The position numbers were made by a program, and so were the translations under genes. From Gemmatimonadota bacterium (GTDB taxonomy: Bacteria > Latescibacterota > UBA2968 > UBA8231): DNA of 64,000 nt. Numbering within the stretch: the first letter of the stretch is position 1; each line of letters begins with the position of its first letter. The notes below the pieces were generated by a model, which saw only the letters and a program-made list of their open reading frames with translations, had not been told where the DNA came from and ran no database searches. Shown one piece after another: positions 36,509 through 45,338 of this stretch. The stretch is from positions 248,001-312,000 of the forward strand of contig JABJJN010000080.1 of assembly GCA_018660835.1 (NCBI GenBank), written 5' to 3'.

Positions 36509-37384
36509 ATGAACCGTAGACGCCTGACCGCCCTTGCCGTCATCCTGAGTATGGGAGTCTTCGCCCTGGCCGCGTATGCTCGAACCGCCATCCAGAACAA
36601 GGGCTCCGATACGCTCGTCAACGTAGCCCAGGCCTGGGCCGAAGAATACGCCAAGGTCGCTCCGGATGTGGCCATCGCAGTGTCCGGCGGCGGTTCCGGC
36701 ACAGGGATCGCCGCGATGATCAATGGGACGGTGGATATAGCCAATGCGAGTCGCCGCATGAAGCAGAAAGAGATCGAGTTGGCTCGGGAGCGAGGCCAGG
36801 AGCCCATTGAGCACATCGTTGGATATGATGCGCTTGCCGTCTACATCCACCCGGACAACCCTGCCGATACATTGAGTCTTACCCAACTGTCGGCGATCTA
36901 TGCTCGTGGCAAGCAATTCAGCAATTGGTCTGATCTCGGAGTCGAGGTGCCGGGCTGCCAGGGCAATACCATCGTCGTCGTGAGTCGGCAGAACAACTCG
37001 GGGACCTATGCCTACTTCCAAAAAGCGGTGCTTGGAACTGGCGGCAAATACCGACAGGGAACATTGGACATGCATGGTTCGAAGGACGTCGTGGACCTCG
37101 TCGAGAAGACTCCATGCGCCATCGGTTACAGCGGCCTCGCGTACGCCACCGACCATGTCAGTCTGACCTGCATCTCCACCGCAGAGGGTGGTGACTGCGT
37201 CAGTCCCTCGGTGGCAACTGCCTCGGATCGAAGCTATCCTATTGCGCGACCACTGTTCATGTACACGAATGGTGAACCACAAGGCGATGTAAAAGCCTAC
37301 CTCGACTGGATTCTGAGTGACACGGGCCAGTGCATTATCCTCGGCAAGGGTTACGCTCCAGTCCGCAATGTTACGTGCGAATAA
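36509..37384 (+). CDS. pstS: Phosphate ABC transporter substrate-binding protein
   Basis: 291 residues with a Sec signal peptide (NRRRLTALAVILSMGVFALAAYA), exported to the periplasm. Phosphate-site segments are visible: NKGSDTLVNVAQAWAEEY, SGGGSGTGIAAMINGTVDIANASR and VVSRQNNSGTYAYFQKAVLG. The ATG at 36509 starts the signal peptide cleanly; ATG 36476 would add 11 residues, and the longer frame to 36260 is spurious. First gene of the pst cluster, with a candidate Pho box at 36395. Confidence 0.95.
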   Translation: MNRRRLTALAVILSMGVFALAAYARTAIQNKGSDTLVNVAQAWAEEYAKVAPDVAIAVSGGGSGTGIAAMINGTVDIANASRRMKQKEIELARERGQEPIEHIVGYDALAVYIHPDNPADTLSLTQLSAIYARGKQFSNWSDLGVEVPGCQGNTIVVVSRQNNSGTYAYFQKAVLGTGGKYRQGTLDMHGSKDVVDLVEKTPCAIGYSGLAYATDHVSLTCISTAEGGDCVSPSVATASDRSYPIARPLFMYTNGEPQGDVKAYLDWILSDTGQCIILGKGYAPVRNVTCE

Positions 37385-37447: not shown

Positions 37448-38524
37448 ATGAGCCAATACGAAGCTCGCCTTGAAAGAGATCTCAGCCACATACGCGGCCA
37501 ACTCGCGTCCCTGGCTGAGGCCGTGCAAACCGCCCTCGAGACGGCGTCCCTCGCCTTGTTCGCCAGTGATCATGAGTTGGCATATGGCGTGTGTCTGGCA
37601 GATCATCCGATCAACCGTGCGAGCCGCGAACTCGACAAAATCTGTCACGGTTTTATCGCCGTGCACCTGCCCAGTGCCGGGCACCTACGTTTCGTGTCCG
37701 CCGTGATGCGTCTGAACCTCGAGTTGGAACGCATCGGTGACTATGCGGTGACAATCAGTCGAGAGACCGCGCAACTACAGGCCCCTCCAGCGGATCCTGC
37801 AGGCGGCCAACTGCAACAAGTCGCACACGAGGCGCGGAGACTGCTGGCATTGGCCGTCTCAGCATTCGACGATGGCGACGCCGATGCAGCCCGGGCCGGA
37901 ATCAAGTCTGCGCTTGTTGCACGAAGGCACGTCGGCGCCTGCTTCGCAGCCGTCGTGAAAGATGAGAAGAGTGCTCCGGCCAGGGAGCTCCTTTTTCGAG
38001 TGGTGATCCTGAACTGCTACGATCGCGTCGTCGATCAGTCGAAGAACATCTGCGAGGAGACGATCTTCGCCGTCACGGGTGAGACGAAGGCACCAAAGTC
38101 CTATCGTGTCCTGTTCCTGGATAGGGACAACTCAATCCTGGGGCCGATGGCGCAGGCGATCGCCACCAAACACCACGCACAGAGCGGACAATACAGCAGC
38201 GCGGGCCAGCAGCCGGCCGACACCTTTCGACAGGGCCTGGGGGTATTCCTTGCTGAACGCGGTTTCGAGTTGGCAGCCACAACACGGCAACTTGATCCAA
38301 CCGCTGATTTGGGCGACTACCACGTCATCGTCAGTCTGCAGGGCTCCGTCCGCGACCACATCGGCAATGTACCGTACTCCACCATTGCCCTGGACTGGAA
38401 TCTGGACGCGGCGCTGAGTGCTGAGTCCAACGAATCCTCACAGCTCTTCGAGTCAGTGTATCGGTCTCTAGCTCCACAGATACGGGATTTGATGATGACC
38501 GTGCACGGTGAGGAGCAGTCCTGA
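37448..38524 (+). CDS. phoU: PhoU-like regulator fused to a degenerate low-molecular-weight phosphatase/ArsC-like domain
   Basis: 358 residues from ATG 37448 (GGAAGA upstream). Residues 1-210 are a PhoU domain of helical bundles; the metal-binding ExxRIGDYA motif (ELERIGDYAVTI) and its second copy region (NCYDRVVDQSKNICEE) are present. Residues 219-340 look like a low-molecular-weight protein-tyrosine-phosphatase/arsenate-reductase fold (YRVLFLDRDNSILGPMAQA, then YSSAG, GDYHVIVS and DWNL). The catalytic P-loop CxxNSxRS reads D225-R-D-N228-S229-I-L231-G232: the nucleophilic Cys, the Arg and the last Ser are lost, so it should not be an active phosphatase and may bind phosphate or a partner. 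It lies between pstS and pstC, an unusual place for phoU. Confidence 0.88.
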   Translation: MSQYEARLERDLSHIRGQLASLAEAVQTALETASLALFASDHELAYGVCLADHPINRASRELDKICHGFIAVHLPSAGHLRFVSAVMRLNLELERIGDYAVTISRETAQLQAPPADPAGGQLQQVAHEARRLLALAVSAFDDGDADAARAGIKSALVARRHVGACFAAVVKDEKSAPARELLFRVVILNCYDRVVDQSKNICEETIFAVTGETKAPKSYRVLFLDRDNSILGPMAQAIATKHHAQSGQYSSAGQQPADTFRQGLGVFLAERGFELAATTRQLDPTADLGDYHVIVSLQGSVRDHIGNVPYSTIALDWNLDAALSAESNESSQLFESVYRSLAPQIRDLMMTVHGEEQS

Positions 38525-38526
38525 AA

Positions 38527-39453
38527 GTGGGCACCCATCAGCAGACGGATCTGGCCATCGAGCACATCGACCAACGCAATCTCGATTGGTACATCGACAA
38601 GGCCGTGGAGATCCTCGTGTTCATCTGTGGTATCTCTGCCATCATCTTCATCATTGGGATCTTCACTTTCATTACCAAGGAAGGCTACCACTTCGTCCTA
38701 CAGATGGACTGGAGCGAATTCTTCCTGACCCAATATTGGTTTCCGAGCGACGAGGACGCACCCGAATTCGGCATTCTCGCTCTGATCGCGGGTACGGCGA
38801 GTGTGACGGGCCTGGCCATGCTGGTGGCGATCCCCTTCTCCCTGGGAGGAGCCATTTTTGTCGCCGAATTCGCATCAGGAAAGACGCGCGAATTCCTCAA
38901 GGTCCTTGTTGAACTGCTCGCCGCGATTCCTTCTGTCGTCTGGGGATTCATCGGTTTGAGCATCATCAATCCTTTGATTATCCAGACCTTCGATGTACCT
39001 GTGGGATTGAATGTGCTCAACGCCGGTGTGATCCTGGGGTTGATGGCGGCCCCGATCATGACCTCGATTGCGGAGGACGCCTTGAATGCGGTACCGGATC
39101 GGTATCGGGAGGCAGCAGAAGCGATGGGCGCCACCCGTTGGCAGGTCATTTTTCGCGTCGTATTGCCCGCCGCCAGGAATGGTCTGTTGGGCGCCGTACT
39201 TCTGGGTGTTGGCCGTGGCTTCGGCGAAACGATGGCGGTTCTGATGGCGACAGGTCACTCGGTGAATATCCCCGGGTCACTCTTCGATTCCGTCAGAGCT
39301 CTGACGGCGACCATCGCCGCCGAATTGGGCGAAACGGCTGTGGGGTCTGACCACTATCAGGCACTATTTGCCATCGGCATCTTCCTTTTCATCATCACCT
39401 TCATCATCAACCTCAGCGCCGACCTGATCGTGCGTGGCGTACGGGAAGGGTAA
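38527..39453 (+). CDS. pstC: Phosphate ABC transporter permease PstC
   Basis: 308-residue inner-membrane permease, GTG start with GAGGAG upstream. Six or so membrane segments; the EAA loop is visible as YREAAEAMGATRWQVIFRVVLPAARNG, and the PstC-type ending IGRGFGETMAVLMATG reads VGRGFGETMAVLMATG. It follows PhoU by 2 bases. Confidence 0.96.
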   Translation: MGTHQQTDLAIEHIDQRNLDWYIDKAVEILVFICGISAIIFIIGIFTFITKEGYHFVLQMDWSEFFLTQYWFPSDEDAPEFGILALIAGTASVTGLAMLVAIPFSLGGAIFVAEFASGKTREFLKVLVELLAAIPSVVWGFIGLSIINPLIIQTFDVPVGLNVLNAGVILGLMAAPIMTSIAEDALNAVPDRYREAAEAMGATRWQVIFRVVLPAARNGLLGAVLLGVGRGFGETMAVLMATGHSVNIPGSLFDSVRALTATIAAELGETAVGSDHYQALFAIGIFLFIITFIINLSADLIVRGVREG

Positions 39454-39463
39454 GACGGAACCC

Positions 39464-40333
39464 ATGTTTGAACCGACCGCCCTCAACAGACGCAACGCTC
39501 ACATTCAGTCACTCTTCAAGCTGCTCTTTGGCCTGATGACGGGGTTGCTCATTCTGCCCGTGATCGTCATCCTCGCCACCCTCATTCAAGAAGGGGGATC
39601 GATCATATCCATCGACTTCCTCTTCTCGCGTCCCACGGACGGAATGACGGCAGGTGGTATCTTCCCTGCTCTTCTTGGCACGATGTGGCTTGTCGCAGTG
39701 GCGCTGATTATCTCGGTGCCCTTGGGCGTTGCGGCCGCCATCTATCTCAGCGAATACGCACCCGAGAATTGGCTGACACGTGTCATCAATCTCGCCATCA
39801 TCAATCTGGCAGGCGTGCCTTCCATCGTCCACGCCCTGTTCGGTGTCGGTGCCTTCGTGCTGTTTTTCAACTTTGGCACCAGCATCCTCGCCGCCAGTCT
39901 GACACTGGCGATCATGACGTTGCCCGTCGTGATCGTTGCGACGCGCGAATCGTTGCAGGCAGTGCCCTTGGCCTTTCGCGAAGCCTGCTGGAATATGGGT
40001 GCTACCCGCTGGCAGACGATTCGCCGCGTCGTGTTGCCCAATGCAGTGAGTGGAATCCTGACGGGTGTCATTCTAGAGGTCTCCCGAACCACAGGGGAGA
40101 CGGCTCCCATCATGTTCACAGGCGCTGTGTTCTTCACCCCCTTCCTGCCACAGGGCGTCTTTGACCAGACGATGGCCATGTCGCTGCATCTGTTTGTCGT
40201 CTCGACCCAGGTTCCAGGTGTGCCCGATGAACTCCCGTATGGCGTCGCACTGGTCTTGATCACCATGGTTTTGGCGATGAACAGCCTCTCCATCGCCTTC
40301 CGCATGCATCTGCGAGGCAAGAAAAAGTGGTAA
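39464..40333 (+). CDS. pstA: Phosphate ABC transporter permease PstA
   Basis: About 289 residues from ATG 39464 (MFEPTALNRRN); a GTG at 39434 inside pstC would extend it. Membrane segments match PstA, with the EAA loop (FREACWNMGATRWQTIRRVVLPN) and the family GETAPIMFTGAVFF segment. It ends in GKKKW, and its last codons overlap the GTG of the next gene by 7 bases, so translation is probably coupled. Confidence 0.95.
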   Translation: MFEPTALNRRNAHIQSLFKLLFGLMTGLLILPVIVILATLIQEGGSIISIDFLFSRPTDGMTAGGIFPALLGTMWLVAVALIISVPLGVAAAIYLSEYAPENWLTRVINLAIINLAGVPSIVHALFGVGAFVLFFNFGTSILAASLTLAIMTLPVVIVATRESLQAVPLAFREACWNMGATRWQTIRRVVLPNAVSGILTGVILEVSRTTGETAPIMFTGAVFFTPFLPQGVFDQTMAMSLHLFVVSTQVPGVPDELPYGVALVLITMVLAMNSLSIAFRMHLRGKKKW

Positions 40334-41079
40334 AGCTCTCGGTCGGTGGGTTGTCCATTCGCTACGGCGACAATACGGTCTTGCGCGACGTGAACCTGGA
40401 GATCCAGGAGCACGAAATCTTCGGCATTATCGGGCCGGCGAATGCAGGAAAGACATCCTTCTTGAAAACGATCAACCGCATGGACGTCTTCGATCCGAAC
40501 ATGCACGTAGATGGCACGATTCACTTCGACGGTCGCGACGTGCGGCAGTGGCGCAACGTGTATGCATTGCGGAGTCGCATCGGCGTCGTATTCCCTCTGC
40601 CCGTGGGGCTACCGCTGAGTGTCTACGACAATGTCGCTCTCGCTCCCCGTCTGGCTGGGCGTCCTTCGCCAGCCGACTTGGATGTCATCGTCGAACGTTG
40701 CCTGACAAGGGCGGCCCTGTGGGATGAAGTCAAAGATCGGCTGGACTCACTCGGCAGCCTGCTTTCCGGTGGCCAACAGCAACGACTCACGATTGCCCGC
40801 GCCCTGTCGCAGGAGCCGGAGCTTTTGATGCTGGACGAGTTTTCCATCGCCGTGGATCCTGTCACGACCATGCGTATCGAGGATGTGCTGAAGGAACTGC
40901 GGCAAGAGCTCACCATCATCCTCGTGACAAACCTCGTTCAGCAGGCAAGGCGTCTGGCAGACCGAACAGCCTTCTTCTTGCAAGGCGAATGTGTCGAGAT
41001 CGGCGCGACGGAGGATCTGTTCACGGGCGGTCACCAGGATCCTCGGACACGGGCGTATGTGGAAGGGAAGTTCGGCTAA
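40327..41079 (+). CDS. pstB: PstB-like phosphate ABC ATPase with defective nucleotide-site residues
   Basis: 250 residues. Walker A is GPANAGKTS (36-44; the fourth position is N, usually G). The signature is intact (LSGGQ, 146-150) and Walker B ends D170-E171. However, the Q-loop glutamine is replaced by P90 (GVVFPLPVGLPLS), the residue after the Walker B Glu is F rather than P, and the switch histidine is N202 (VTNLVQQ). This subunit should bind ATP weakly or fail to hydrolyse it at its own Walker site, but can supply a good signature motif to its partner. Its partner is presumably the adjacent paralogue at 41083. Confidence 0.92.
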   Translation: MVKLSVGGLSIRYGDNTVLRDVNLEIQEHEIFGIIGPANAGKTSFLKTINRMDVFDPNMHVDGTIHFDGRDVRQWRNVYALRSRIGVVFPLPVGLPLSVYDNVALAPRLAGRPSPADLDVIVERCLTRAALWDEVKDRLDSLGSLLSGGQQQRLTIARALSQEPELLMLDEFSIAVDPVTTMRIEDVLKELRQELTIILVTNLVQQARRLADRTAFFLQGECVEIGATEDLFTGGHQDPRTRAYVEGKFG

Positions 41080-41082
41080 ACC

Positions 41083-41847
41083 ATGCTTGAGCACGCGATC
41101 CGCACTGAACAACTGAACCTCTGGTATGGTGACTTCCAGGCCCTCTTCGACGTCGATCTGGACATTAAGAAGGGCATCATCACCTCCCTGATCGGTCCGT
41201 CTGGCTGCGGCAAGTCAACGATCCTGCGAAGCGTCAACCGCATCAACGAGCGACTCGGCTATGTGCGGATCGAGGGAAGCATCAAGGTCATGGGAGAGGA
41301 CATCTATGAGGGCGGCGTCGAACTTGTGCAGGTGCGCAAACAGGTGGGAATGGTCTTTCAGCGCCCCAACCCTTTGCCGCTGTCGATTCGTGACAATGTT
41401 CTATTTGGCCATCGACTGCACACCACGGAGCGACTGACGAAATCCGCTGCAGAGGAGATTGTCGAGACAGCCCTGCAACAGGTCCTGCTTTGGGACAAGC
41501 TCAAGGATCAGCTGGATGATCGGGCGACAAGCCTGTCTCTGGAAGAACAGCAGAAGCTCTGCATCGCCCGCCTGCTGCCTGTCAAACCAACGGTACTGCT
41601 CATGGACGAGCCCTGTTCAGCGTTGGATCCCAAGGGCACGGAAGCTGTCGAGGAATTGATTTGGGAACTGCAAGGCCAGTACACAATCCTCATCGTCACG
41701 CACAATATGGCGCAGGCACGACGAGCCAGTGAGGAATGCATCTTTATGCTGCTTGGCAAGGTGATCGAGCACAGCCGCACGGGCGAGATGTTTGTGACAC
41801 CGAAGCACACCGAGACGGCAGACTACATCGAAGGTCGTTATGGGTGA
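41083..41847 (+). CDS. pstB: Second PstB-like phosphate ABC ATPase with degenerate signature motif
   Basis: 254 residues. Walker A is canonical (GPSGCGKST, 38-46), the Q-loop keeps Q93 (GMVFQRPNPLPLS), Walker B ends D175-E176-P, and the switch His is H207 (VTHNMAQ). The signature, which should be LSGGQ, reads LSLEEQ (151-156). This subunit therefore has a complete catalytic half-site but cannot complete its partner's site. It lies 3 bases after the first pstB. Convergent with phoR, 10 bases apart. Confidence 0.92.
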   Translation: MLEHAIRTEQLNLWYGDFQALFDVDLDIKKGIITSLIGPSGCGKSTILRSVNRINERLGYVRIEGSIKVMGEDIYEGGVELVQVRKQVGMVFQRPNPLPLSIRDNVLFGHRLHTTERLTKSAAEEIVETALQQVLLWDKLKDQLDDRATSLSLEEQQKLCIARLLPVKPTVLLMDEPCSALDPKGTEAVEELIWELQGQYTILIVTHNMAQARRASEECIFMLLGKVIEHSRTGEMFVTPKHTETADYIEGRYG

Positions 41848-41857
41848 GGATGGGAGG

Positions 41858-43288
41858 TTAGTCGACGGCTAGAGTGAAGCCGAAAGTCGACCCGCTTCCC
41901 GGGCTGCTGTCAACGAAGACGTGTTCGCCATGCAGAGATAAGGCGTGACGCACGATCGCCAGCCCAAGACCCGTCCCACCCATTTCTCGTGATCGCCCCT
42001 TGTCGACACGATAGAAACGCTCGAAAACGCGATCGAGTACATCTGGCGGGATACCGATGCCGGAGTCGGTGACCTCAATAAAGAGCGCGTCTGCTGAATT
42101 CTGCGCCGCATCGACGCCAAGAGCGAGATCATGCTTGAGCAATTCTCCCGCCACATGCTCGCGCTCTGCTCGGTATGTCCGAATCGCGATGCGGCCATCT
42201 TCCGGCGTGTATTTTATGGCATTGTCCATAAGATTGATCAGGGTCTGCTCGATCAATTGACGGTCACACCTTACCGACGTCGACGGATCTTCGAGCTGCA
42301 CTTGGATCTCGATTCGCTTGCCTTGCCGTGTTTCCTCAACCGCTTCTTGTGCCGCCTCGATAAGGCTCGCCAGAGCATGATTATGCACGTCGATCTGGAG
42401 TTCATCTGACTCAAGCCGAGACAGATCCAGCAGATCATCGAGAAGATTCGTCAGCCGCTTCGCGTGCGAGTTGATGACAGCGACGAAACGGCCCGCTGCG
42501 TCTCTATCTTCCAGCGCACCGTCAGCGAGCGTTTCCGCACTACCTCTGATGGCCGTGAGAGGAGTCCGCAACTCGTGCGAAACGTTGGCGACGAAATCGG
42601 CGCGTGTGCGCTCGAGCCGTCTCAGATTTGTGATATCGTATAGGACAGTGACGGAGCCGACGAGACGGTCTTCGTCCACAATGGGTGCGACCCGGACATC
42701 GAGGTGACGCGGTGTCACTCCTGGCAGTGGGACCTCAGATGCCACGCGAAGACGACTTACGAGAACCTCATCGACCGATTCGCAGATAGCTGCACTGCGA
42801 ATGACATCCTCGGGTCGCAATCCATAGTTGGTATCATCGATGCCAAACAGATCCGTGAGGGCCCGGTTCGTAAGCACGATCCTGCCTTGCTCATCGGTCA
42901 CCAGGATTGCCTCGGTCATGCTGTCGAAGATGCCCTGAAATCGAAATCGCTCCTCTGCAAGAGACTGAACGACCCTTTCGTTGCGCTCTTGGGAATCAGC
43001 CAGGGCTCGATTTAGATCGTGAAGTTCATGGGGGGCCCCTGGTGTCAGGGAGGGCCAGACACTGGCTCGTTCAGTGGCTCTCGTCGCTCGAATTAGATCG
43101 TCGATGGGACGCCGCAGAAAACGCGCTGCCCATCCGCCGATACTGGCTGCTGCGACAACAACGATGAGGAAGAACCCCGGTTGGGTCGGACGTGGATTGG
43201 CTTGCGGTCCAATGTATGCATCGACCAGGATCAGTAGCGTCGCTGCTCCTGCACCACAGACCAGAGCACAGATCCGAGCCAGCGTCAT
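41858..43288 (-). CDS. phoR: Phosphate-regulon sensor histidine kinase PhoR
   Basis: 476 residues: two N-terminal membrane segments (about 5-25 and 38-56), a HAMP-like linker, a PAS domain (about 115-225; FDSMTEAILVTDEQGRIVLTNRALTDLFG), a DHp domain with the phospho-acceptor His in VSHELRTPLTAIRGSAE, and a CATPase domain with NLMDNAIKYT, DSGIGIP and GGTGLGLAIVRH. The layout matches PhoR. It overlaps phoB by 4 bases. Confidence 0.94.
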   Translation of the reverse strand: MTLARICALVCGAGAATLLILVDAYIGPQANPRPTQPGFFLIVVVAAASIGGWAARFLRRPIDDLIRATRATERASVWPSLTPGAPHELHDLNRALADSQERNERVVQSLAEERFRFQGIFDSMTEAILVTDEQGRIVLTNRALTDLFGIDDTNYGLRPEDVIRSAAICESVDEVLVSRLRVASEVPLPGVTPRHLDVRVAPIVDEDRLVGSVTVLYDITNLRRLERTRADFVANVSHELRTPLTAIRGSAETLADGALEDRDAAGRFVAVINSHAKRLTNLLDDLLDLSRLESDELQIDVHNHALASLIEAAQEAVEETRQGKRIEIQVQLEDPSTSVRCDRQLIEQTLINLMDNAIKYTPEDGRIAIRTYRAEREHVAGELLKHDLALGVDAAQNSADALFIEVTDSGIGIPPDVLDRVFERFYRVDKGRSREMGGTGLGLAIVRHALSLHGEHVFVDSSPGSGSTFGFTLAVD

Positions 43289-44001
43289 TCAGGATCTTTC
43301 CGAAATCGATAGCCCACGCCGCGGACGGTCTCGACCCAGTCCTGCGCTTCGCCAAGTTTCTCACGCAACCGTCTTACATGGGTATCCACCGTCCGCTCGT
43401 AGCCACTGTGCTGGTATCCCCACACAACATTGAGCAATTCTTCACGGCTCTGGACGCGCCCTCGTCGCCGGGTAAGAGTCAGCAAGAGCTTGAACTCCGT
43501 TGCCGTAAGCTGCAGCGGTATGCCGGATACATACGCTTGATGACCCTCTGGATCGACGGACAGCGATCCAGCCTCAAAAAGCGTCGACGACGCTGCTGCG
43601 GACTTCTCTACCGTGGACTGGTGGCGCCGAAGAATAGACTTCACCCTCAGAACCAATTCTCGCGGCGAAAATGGCTTGGTCAAGTAGTCGTCGGCACCAA
43701 GTTCGAGACCGACGATTCGATCGACCTCCTCTGCCTTGGCTGTGAGCATGATGACGGGGATGTGACGAACGCTGTCTCTCTGCTTCAGCAGCCGGCAAAC
43801 CTCCAGACCATCCATCCCGGGCAGCATCAGGTCGAGAATGATGAGATCCGGTTGCAGATCCTCGGCCATCTGCAGGGCCGTTTCCCCGTCCTTTGCAGGC
43901 TCGGGCTCGAAACCCGACTGACGCAGATTGTAGGACACAATCTCGAGGATGTCTGGTTCGTCTTCCACGACGAGAATTCGTTGGCTCGTCATTGTCTCCA
44001 T
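43285..44001 (-). CDS. phoB: Phosphate-regulon response regulator PhoB
   Basis: 238 residues, OmpR/PhoB family. Receiver domain with the acidic pair EDE, phospho-acceptor Asp in LIILDLMLPGMDG and the Lys in YLTKPF; winged-helix DNA-binding domain in the C-terminal half (LTATEFKLLLTLTRRRGRVQSREELLN, then VDTHVRRLREKLG). The start may be at 44001 or at the ATG at 43992 (MTSQRILVVED). It is the first gene of the phoB-phoR operon and diverges from the porin gene. Its targets are probably pstS and the porin, see the shared motif. Confidence 0.95.
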   Translation of the reverse strand: METMTSQRILVVEDEPDILEIVSYNLRQSGFEPEPAKDGETALQMAEDLQPDLIILDLMLPGMDGLEVCRLLKQRDSVRHIPVIMLTAKAEEVDRIVGLELGADDYLTKPFSPRELVLRVKSILRRHQSTVEKSAAASSTLFEAGSLSVDPEGHQAYVSGIPLQLTATEFKLLLTLTRRRGRVQSREELLNVVWGYQHSGYERTVDTHVRRLREKLGEAQDWVETVRGVGYRFRKDPE

Positions 44002-44363
44002 TACCTGATCTTTTCAGGGCCCCAGCTTCGACCGTTTACTAAAGTAGACGATCTGAGCAAGGTGTTCAGACCGCGTTACGATCGGACTTGGCTAAGGGTT
44101 CGTTTTTGGTAGCGGAAACCTCGGCTCTGCTCGTAGGTTTGGATTTCCATAAAAAAAAATCTGATCCTTTCATCCCCTGAAATTGACAGAGTCAGTTCAC
44201 AGGCGGATGCCGGAATCGTTACGATTGTGTGACACTCGGGAATGCTGGCCTCTAGGCTGCCCGATCGTCACCCAATCGTCCTTGGTACGACACGAGAGTG
44301 TCACCGTACGATGCCATGTTTTTCTTGTCACCGCCACTTCATCCAAACAGTGAGAATGTGCGA
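44002..44363. promoter_or_regulatory. Divergent promoter region between phoB and porin with two Pho-like motifs
   Basis: This 362-base gap has no gene. Two copies of a 13-base element face each other: ACGATTGTGTGAC at 44221-44233 and GTCACCCAATCGT at 44267-44279 (reverse complement ACGATTGGGTGAC, 12 of 13 identical). The first copy is identical to the site upstream of pstS. A run of nine A lies near 44152-44160 and a TTGACA-like hexamer at 44183. A weaker GTTACGAT occurs near 44084. The whole is a good candidate for PhoB control of the porin and perhaps of phoB itself. Confidence 0.55.
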
Positions 44364-45338
44364 ATGCGCCTTCGATTCACCCTCTTTATCGTCATCGCTC
44401 TGACGCTCATCGGCAGACCCTCGACCGATGCTGACGTTGGCAAGATCGGTGGCGTGGGATATGCTGACTACTACTACGTCGCTTCCGCCGATGACACCGA
44501 TCCTGGTCAAATACCGGAGAAGCAGAACGCTTTCCGCATGCGGCGCCTGTATCTGACCTACAATCAGGATGTGTCAGAGCGTTTCGATGTGCGCTTTCGC
44601 CTGGAGGCGAATGACGCCGGATTCGGCAAGACCGCAAAAATGGTCCCCTTCGTCAAGCATGGCTATCTGAAATGGAAAGGCGCGCTGGGAGGTGACCTGT
44701 ATCTGGGCCTCTCAGGGACGCCGACGTGGGGTATCTCTGAATCCTACTGGGGCTATCGAGCGGTGGAGAAGACGATCCTTGACCTGAATGGAATCGGCTC
44801 GTCAGCTGATGTAGGAGTTGGCCTGACAGGTGCCACCGGCGCCCTCGACTATCACATCATGGTCGCCAATGGCCCCGGACAACGCCCGGAAACGGACAAT
44901 GGCAAGAAATTCTACGGATCTCTGTCGACGCGTCCCTCTGACGCCCTGGTCCTGGAGGTCTATGCTGATCTCGATCTACGCCCCGCCGATCAGAACAGAT
45001 TGACAGCCAAGGGTTTCGCCGGAATTGAGAGTGGTGGCCTGCGTTTGGGTGTCGAACCCTTTATTCGCATTAACAGTGAAGCGGGTACTGGCGGCGATGA
45101 TGAAACGATCACAGGCGCATCGATCTTCGCTTCATTGCCAGTGGGCAACAATCGCGTCTTCGGTCGATTCGATCTGGTGAGCAACGATGACGCCGATACG
45201 AGCGAGATGTTCATCCTCGCCGGGTATGACTGGACCGTTGAGAAGGGCCTGCACATCATTCCCAACATCCACATCCAATTGCCTGATGGACCCGATCCGA
45301 ACATTCAGGCTCGTGTGACGGCGTATTACAAGTTCTAG
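44364..45338 (+). CDS. Phosphate-selective porin-like outer membrane protein
   Basis: 324 residues from ATG 44364, chosen because it begins a Sec signal peptide (RLRFTLFIVIALTLIGRPSTDA); an upstream frame to 44298 adds nothing recognisable. The mature protein opens VGKIGGVGYADYYYVASADD, contains AFRMRRLYLTYNQDVSERFDVRFRLE as in O/P-type porins, and ends ITAYYKF-like (VTAYYKF) with a terminal Phe. It probably forms a channel for phosphate or other anions. Context: directly beside phoB-phoR and followed by a strong terminator, so it is part of the phosphate island. Confidence 0.82.
   Translation: MRLRFTLFIVIALTLIGRPSTDADVGKIGGVGYADYYYVASADDTDPGQIPEKQNAFRMRRLYLTYNQDVSERFDVRFRLEANDAGFGKTAKMVPFVKHGYLKWKGALGGDLYLGLSGTPTWGISESYWGYRAVEKTILDLNGIGSSADVGVGLTGATGALDYHIMVANGPGQRPETDNGKKFYGSLSTRPSDALVLEVYADLDLRPADQNRLTAKGFAGIESGGLRLGVEPFIRINSEAGTGGDDETITGASIFASLPVGNNRVFGRFDLVSNDDADTSEMFILAGYDWTVEKGLHIIPNIHIQLPDGPDPNIQARVTAYYKF

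Follow-up and report, generated by a model that had tools for sequence, protein, structure and literature searches.

Can two PstB subunits, neither of which carries a full set of ATPase motifs, work together as the ATPase of one phosphate importer? This question is raised by a pair of adjacent genes, pstB-1 and pstB-2, at the end of a complete plus-strand phosphate operon (pstS, phoU, pstC, pstA, pstB-1, pstB-2) in a 64,000-nucleotide stretch of Gemmatimonadota bacterium DNA (GTDB lineage Latescibacterota; assembly GCA_018660835.1, contig JABJJN010000080.1, positions 248,001 to 312,000), referred to below as the window. Pst is a textbook importer whose ATPase is treated as symmetric, and canonical PstB is thought to work as a homodimer with two sites. 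Judging from their sequences, PstB-1 and PstB-2 are very probably the two ATP-binding subunits of a single phosphate importer, assembled on PstC-PstA as an obligate heterodimer in which a single site hydrolyses ATP.

Complementary motif losses in PstB-1 and PstB-2

Each ATP site of an ATP-binding cassette (ABC) dimer combines Walker A, Walker B, the Q-loop and the H-loop His of one subunit with the signature of the other (PMC7756269). A preliminary description of the window, made from the letters alone, had reported Pro90 and Asn202 in place of the Q-loop Gln and switch His of PstB-1 next to an intact LSGGQ, and Gln93, Asp175-Glu176 and His207 in PstB-2 next to the signature LSLEE. Coordinates and residues turned out to be as described in both open reading frames (Table 1), and motif reading confirmed the claim that the PstB-2 Walker site and the PstB-1 signature make up a complete site. 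The description went too far in calling the opposite site dead in every visible element, as PstB-1 retains the Walker A Lys and the Walker B Asp-Glu.

The two proteins are 36% identical to each other, and neither has the full motif set on its own. As a pair they show the arrangement of asymmetric ABC proteins, with one composite site complete and the other degenerate by sequence, and with the signature altered in the subunit that faces the degenerate site. Loss of the catalytic Walker B Glu at the degenerate site, which is common though not universal in such proteins, is not seen here.

Conservation of retained and lost motifs

We classified the distinct sequences from all loci as PstB-1-type (128), PstB-2-type (121) and canonical (112). 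Two of the 121, with LSLGQ (L352) and LSQGQ (L148) signatures, are not of the pair class and were dropped, leaving 119. The classifier used the Gln, the His and the signature positions themselves, so motif counts per class at these positions hold partly by definition; as a guard against circularity, the 29 proteins that remained unclassified were identified as truncated pieces, other ABC ATPases and third copies (L053/L140, L056/L144/L197).

PstB-1-type proteins kept LSGGQ and the Walker B Asp-Glu, and had Asn in place of His, in all 128 sequences; the Walker A Lys was present in 126 of 126 readable cases, and the Q-loop Gln was lost in all 127 readable ones (107 Pro, 20 Ala). In PstB-2-type proteins the Gln was found in 119/119 and the His in 118/119, with a Tyr in the remaining one (L204). 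Position 4 of their signature was Glu or Asp in 118/119, and an acid occupied position 4 or 5 in every one. As in the window, the signature is altered in all 119, which holds partly by class definition. Canonical PstBs kept Gln, His and both signature glycines in 112/112 distinct sequences, again partly by class definition. The near-uniform replacement of the lost PstB-2 glycine by an acid (118/119), which the LNVEQ signature of yeast Pdr5 shares, suggests selection rather than decay. On these sequences, the co-occurrence of the PstB-1 defects and the PstB-2 defect on neighbouring genes is more than chance.

Where a protein scores poorly against its own family, one could think of a duplicate gene in ordinary decay or of a sequencing error, and both window proteins do score poorly: TIGR00972 (PstB) is the best family for each, and PstB-1 (269.5 bits) and PstB-2 (324.1 bits) both stay under its curated cut-off of 343.2. 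However, 128 distinct PstB-1-type and 119 distinct PstB-2-type sequences, drawn from several phyla and many assemblies, share these residues and strictly retain the complementary elements. Because the pattern recurs locus after locus, decay or assembly error was ruled out, and we regard it as practically impossible.

Pairing and co-inheritance

A PstB-2-type gene or fragment was found directly downstream of 125 of the 128 distinct PstB-1 genes. All motifs are readable in 118 of these partners, and seven are cut by a contig end (two of the seven still show the broken signature); the PstB-2 of L056, a locus that also has a third copy, was counted among the pairs from its own motif reading. The adjacent covariation of the Pro, the Asn and the acidic signature, which the preliminary description had proposed as a check, thus holds. 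Among the unpaired genes, the contig ends at the gene itself in L058 and 226 bases later in L203, where a PstB-2 fragment is present.

Pairwise distances among PstB-1 proteins follow those among PstB-2 proteins closely (r = 0.93, 114 pairs; maximum of 999 permutations 0.22), which shows co-inheritance, not contact. In a tree built without the motif columns, 37 PstB-1 proteins formed one branch with a support of 100 in the Shimodaira-Hasegawa-like approximate likelihood ratio test (SH-aLRT), and 37 PstB-2 proteins formed another with a support of 98; left out of this tree were L067_canb and L056_B3, both flagged as long branches, and L053_B3.

The pairs fall into two classes. Class I, to which the window belongs, has Pro at the Q-loop of PstB-1 and the sequence LDEFSIA(V/I)DP. 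Class II PstB-1 proteins (L175-L178, L208, L215-L227, L251, L252) have Ala at the Q-loop, Asn at the His position and an ordinary DEPxSGLDP, and their PstB-2 signatures include LSAEQ, LTGEQ, LPLDQ and LSLEQ. When the three omitted rows were included in the tree, class I PstB-1 grouped as one branch (99) that met the class II branches in a polytomy. The simplest history would start from a single duplication, followed by complementary losses and then by long joint inheritance across phyla.

Several loci depart from the usual layout. About 700 bases lie between pstB-1 and pstB-2 in L055 (6748-7486). A third, still more degenerate PstB copy lies downstream of the pair in L056 (7402-8286; also L144, L197) and in L053 (8480-9277; also L140); these copies have LTTSM or LSIGQ signatures, no Gln and Asn for His, and the one in L053 is located after an extra permease-like gene and before phoU. 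L148 (1495-2286) and L352 (475-1242), excluded above, encode single PstB-like proteins with Gln and His intact.

Proposed mechanism

Obligate heterodimerization is the expected outcome because neither homodimer can build a complete site, while the heterodimer builds exactly one. We infer from this that the heterodimer assembles and that a single site hydrolyses ATP, and we derive a role for the silent site and an ATP stoichiometry, as follows. The complete site, with Walker A, Walker B, Q-loop and His of PstB-2 facing the LSGGQ of PstB-1, would hydrolyse ATP and drive transport. The other site would be made of Walker A and Walker B of PstB-1 and the LSLEE of PstB-2; it would keep the residues that hold Mg-nucleotide and would have no Gln, His or signature glycines. 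It probably binds nucleotide, since the Walker A Lys and the Walker B Asp-Glu remain in PstB-1, and it should not turn over. Its role is probably that of a standing contact that keeps the dimer from coming apart during opening and closing of the complete site. Such a transporter would spend about one ATP per cycle rather than two.

The same Lys and catalytic Glu, retained in every readable PstB-1 (126/126 and 128/128), could also mean that the heterodimer forms and both sites hydrolyse, the second being merely slowed; some Q-loop and H-loop changes are tolerated in ABCC1 (PMC7756269). At the site in question, however, Gln, His and signature are all lost, and nearly all PstB-2-type proteins (118/119) have an acid for the second signature glycine. 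We therefore consider a slowly hydrolysing second site unlikely.

Other Pst systems in pair-bearing genomes

In the window's genome (93% complete), matches to TIGR00972 at 1e-55 were PstB-1 and PstB-2 only, the next ABC match to PstB-2 after PstB-1 reached 80 bits, and the PstC model at 1e-25 matched no proteins other than this operon's PstC and PstA. Four further genomes (G383, G488, G536 and G564, completeness not stated) each had two PstB matches, namely the pair, one PstC and one PstA. Profile searches thus found no canonical PstB elsewhere in these five assemblies.

Among 27 other pair-bearing genomes, a canonical PstB (above the cut-off and with canonical motifs) was absent in 16. In the other 11 it was present, and within the window's family G002, G023 and G024 hold the pair together with a canonical PstB. 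The preliminary description had named a canonical PstB elsewhere that serves this transporter as grounds for giving up the heterodimer; the window's assembly and the four genomes offer none, and the 11 genomes do contain one, so that a mixed dimer is possible there.

These 11 genomes are one of several points that weigh against an obligate heterodimer. When the two window subunits were modelled with AlphaFold read through as one chain, with three read-through rows in the alignment, the predicted template modelling score (pTM) was 0.51, the mean predicted local distance difference test score (pLDDT) ranged from 38 to 82 over five models, and no interface was obtained. In the tree that includes L067_canb, L056_B3 and L053_B3, PstB-2 was not one branch, requiring two changes. 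Neighbouring genes are expected to be co-inherited even in the absence of physical interaction. Finally, in G1106 (L279/L307) 2.1 kb downstream of pstB-1 contain no partner, and a PstB-2-type gene lies on another contig (L338). Relatives with only one of the genes would, according to the preliminary description, have spoken against the pair, and G1106, the sole exception away from a contig edge, still holds both.

A canonical PstB in some genomes also gives room to the idea that PstB-1 is a regulatory by-product and no transporter subunit, with PstB-2 pairing with itself or with another ATPase. Pseudo-ATPases can turn into regulators. Yet the LSGGQ of PstB-1, kept without exception, is usable only by a partner, a PstB-2 self-dimer would have no complete site because PstB-2 is without a signature, and in the five genomes described above no other PstB was found. 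A by-product role for PstB-1 is thus very improbable, and the heterodimer of PstB-1 and PstB-2 is the reading we retain.

Distribution of the pair

In a one-genome-per-species collection, among the matches listed, PstB-1 relatives had 52-80% identity, and canonical PstBs came only after a gap, at 49% or less. The record titles of the PstB-1 relatives name Accumulibacter, Planctomycetota, Chromatiaceae, Holophagales and other Acidobacteria, Nitrospirales, Rhodothermales, Poribacteria, a deltaproteobacterium, Verrucomicrobia, Bacteriovoracaceae and Magnetococcales; by record titles and origins in the tree, the relatives span at least about nine phyla. One of these lineages is Candidatus Accumulibacter, known for its role in removing phosphate from waste water.

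Genome surveys were run at an E limit of 1e-70 with few candidates scored per genome (6 or 9 in the four surveys around a centre locus, each assigned to the phylum in the record title of that locus), and their counts are therefore lower bounds. PstB-1 was matched in 4 of 64 genomes of the window's phylum, and in at least 26 of 294, 38 of 297, 11 of 288 and 26 of 398 genomes around the Planctomycetota, Acidobacteriota, Verrucomicrobiota and Pseudomonadota centres, respectively. Two of the last 26 are canonical (L281, L282); all other matches are of PstB-1 type by motifs. Overall, the PstB-1 type occurs in at least 105 of 1341 surveyed genomes, including G132 and G105, which were found through PstB-2 only. 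A reverse search of the same 294 Planctomycetota-centre genomes with PstB-2 gave 28 matches (24 pair members and 4 canonical) and recovered all 22 class I genomes of the PstB-1 survey.

Plasmid-borne spread of the pair was considered and rejected: a tblastn search of 72,556 plasmids gave 83 matching records, every one below 60% identity, and the best 20 of the 83 did not exceed 47.8%, the level of canonical PstB. Two separate pairs per genome were observed in G1027, G1043, G1078 and G1102 (L270, L274-L276, L283-L286), and in L301 (3-8681) pstC, pstA and a canonical pstB are followed directly by a full class II pair operon.

PhoU fused to an ArsC-fold domain

The PhoU encoded in the window has about 140 extra residues. 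Its AlphaFold model (mean pLDDT 90.5, pTM 0.81) has the PhoU fold, with a template modelling (TM) score of 0.93 by target length against PhoU 4q25, and its TIGR02135 score of 106.0 bits is under the cut-off of 130.25. The tail has the same fold as ArsC and low-molecular-weight protein tyrosine phosphatase (LMW-PTP): its model matches arsenate reductases, for example 3rh0 ArsC2, at TM 0.82-0.83 by target length. It differs from these enzymes in being fused to PhoU and in that the nucleophile Cys is mostly replaced by Asp. The window domain has Asp and Leu at the positions of the catalytic Cys and Arg, and thus lacks the enzyme residues; of 38 such domains, the window's among them, 34 carry Asp in place of the Cys, two carry Gly and one Glu, and one keeps the Cys. 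The domain with the Cys, in L054 (313-1434), is the sole fusion with both Cys and Arg in its phosphate loop (CDKNDCRS) and possibly represents an ancestral enzyme state.

Outside the window, the fusion was present in 37 of 47 class I loci (20 of 27 from the species-collection search and 17 of 20 chosen loci). It occurred in none of the 20 class II loci, 19 of them with an identified PhoU, and in none of the 53 canonical loci, 38 of them with an identified PhoU. Fisher tests of fusion by class used the loci in which PhoU was found and carry no correction for relatedness. The profile for the fused domain was made from class I sequences; independently of it, canonical PhoUs stop 0 to 71 residues past the PhoU domain. 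An open-access literature search found no published PhoU-ArsC fusion among the matches listed.

Such a fusion may hint at how PhoU reads the transporter. It could even be argued that the complex is mainly a phosphate sensor acting via PhoU and the sensor kinase, with transport secondary and with the silent site and the PhoU pseudo-enzyme domain tuning the signal; the restriction of the fusion to class I loci and the PhoR- and PhoB-like genes adjoining the operon in the window would fit. But PstS, PstC and PstA are complete and score above their cut-offs, no other Pst system was found in the five genomes searched, and class II pairs share the ATPase asymmetry without any ArsC domain. A complex devoted chiefly to sensing is quite unlikely in our view.

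A bolder version of the heterodimer proposal would see the pair as an old, widespread Pst branch that uses one ATP per phosphate. The acid at position 4 of the PstB-2 signature would mimic the gamma-phosphate against the PstB-1 Walker A Lys and make the silent site a permanent, nucleotide-tolerant latch, and the acid of the class I PhoU-ArsC domain would likewise make that domain a module for docking or signalling by which the asymmetric ATPase is read. We put this forward tentatively and think it doubtful as a whole.

Comparison with known systems

Canonical PstB resembles the pair in fold family, gene neighbours and the presence of PstS, PstC and PstA, and differs in keeping all motifs, whereas here two subunits have complementary losses. 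Tandem pstB genes as such are known. In Enterococcus faecalis (Firmicutes), pstB1 and pstB2 are likewise adjacent in one operon, but both copies retain the motifs checked; its authors state that there was no earlier published study of tandem pstB function (PMC12096839). PstBA and PstBB of B. subtilis are tabulated as the two nucleotide-binding domains (NBDs) of one modelled transporter (PMC11466899).

The preliminary description had likened the pattern to asymmetric heterodimeric exporters and knew of no phosphate importer with it. The likeness is borne out: Pdr5 and heterodimeric exporters have one complete and one degenerate composite site, and the Glu of the Pdr5 signature stands at the same position as in LSLEE. 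Nucleotide-bound structures of Pdr5 show ATP in the deviant site, and activity was abolished when all motifs of that site were changed to the canonical form (PMC8421411, PMC7756269). Pdr5 differs in being a single-chain exporter, and in its silent site the Walker A Lys, the Walker B Glu and the His are all changed, whereas PstB-1 keeps Lys and Glu; degenerate exporter sites commonly alter the Walker B Glu (PMC7756269). The pattern is not confined to exporters, however. The importers RbsA and NupO have one degenerate ATP site, but both NBDs lie on one chain, the second Walker A has no Lys, and they are classed as type II importers (PMC11466899), while PstB-1 and PstB-2 are separate chains. No phosphate importer with one degenerate site was found among the matches listed in the open-access literature search, which did list IrtAB, an unusual heterodimeric importer. 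The complementary-defect pair thus appears new to phosphate importers, while one-degenerate-site importers as such are already known.

The natural division of the two ATP sites between separate genes offers a clean route to the number of ATPs needed per phosphate. It also lets the purpose of a silent site be asked in an importer; the authors of the Pdr5 work call that purpose unclear (PMC8421411). Family models give both genes the name PstB, which masks the asymmetry.

The pst operon and its neighbours

Both PstB subunits are encoded together with PstS, PstC, PstA and PhoU (Table 1). The pstC gene is the sole TIGR02138 match above the cut-off in the window's genome. The PhoR-like and PhoB-like genes lie convergent to the operon, downstream of it.

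Table 1. Genes of the phosphate locus and motif positions in the two PstB subunits (window coordinates).
Feature	Position	Strand	Remarks
pstS, phosphate-binding protein	36509..37384	+	TIGR02136 226.6 bits, above curated cut-off; likely start ATG 36509
phoU with C-terminal arsenate-reductase/LMW-PTP-fold domain	37448..38524	+	likely start 37448
ArsC-fold domain of PhoU	38090..38521 (approximate boundaries)	+	phosphate loop replaced (LFLDRDNSILGPMA); Asp for nucleophile Cys
pstC, permease	38527..39453	+	TIGR02138 285.6 bits, above cut-off
pstA, permease	39434..40333	+	TIGR00974 258.7 bits, above cut-off
pstB-1	40327..41079	+	GTG start; 7-nt overlap with pstA; signature intact, Q-loop Gln and switch His gone
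PstB-1 Walker A, GPANAGKTS, aa 36-44	40432..40458	+	Lys retained; fits GxxxxGK[ST]
PstB-1 Q-loop position	40594..40596	+	Pro90 in place of Gln
PstB-1 signature, LSGGQ, aa 146-150	40762..40776	+	intact
PstB-1 Walker B, Asp170-Glu171 (LDE)	40834..40839	+	retained
PstB-1 H-loop (switch) position	40930..40932	+	Asn202 in place of His
pstB-2	41083..41847	+	Walker A/B, Q-loop and H-loop intact; signature acid-substituted
PstB-2 Walker A, GPSGCGKST, aa 38-46	41194..41220	+	intact
PstB-2 Q-loop, Gln93	41359..41361	+	intact
PstB-2 signature, LSLEE, aa 151-155	41533..41547	+	degenerate; Glu154 at second-glycine position
PstB-2 Walker B, Asp175-Glu176 (MDE)	41605..41610	+	intact
PstB-2 switch His207	41701..41703	+	intact
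PnpS/PhoR-like sensor kinase	41858..43288	-	best model NF046044 PnpS 355.8 bits, under cut-off 400
PhoB-like response regulator	43285..44001	-	best model TIGR02154 254.3 bits, under cut-off 296.2

A further gene at 44298-45338 is porin-like by sequence alone and has no Pfam or NCBIfam match; its product is possibly a phosphate-related outer-membrane channel. Homologues of 34-36% identity lie beside pst in relatives (L052 1115-2134; L071 159-1145; L308 1296-2603).

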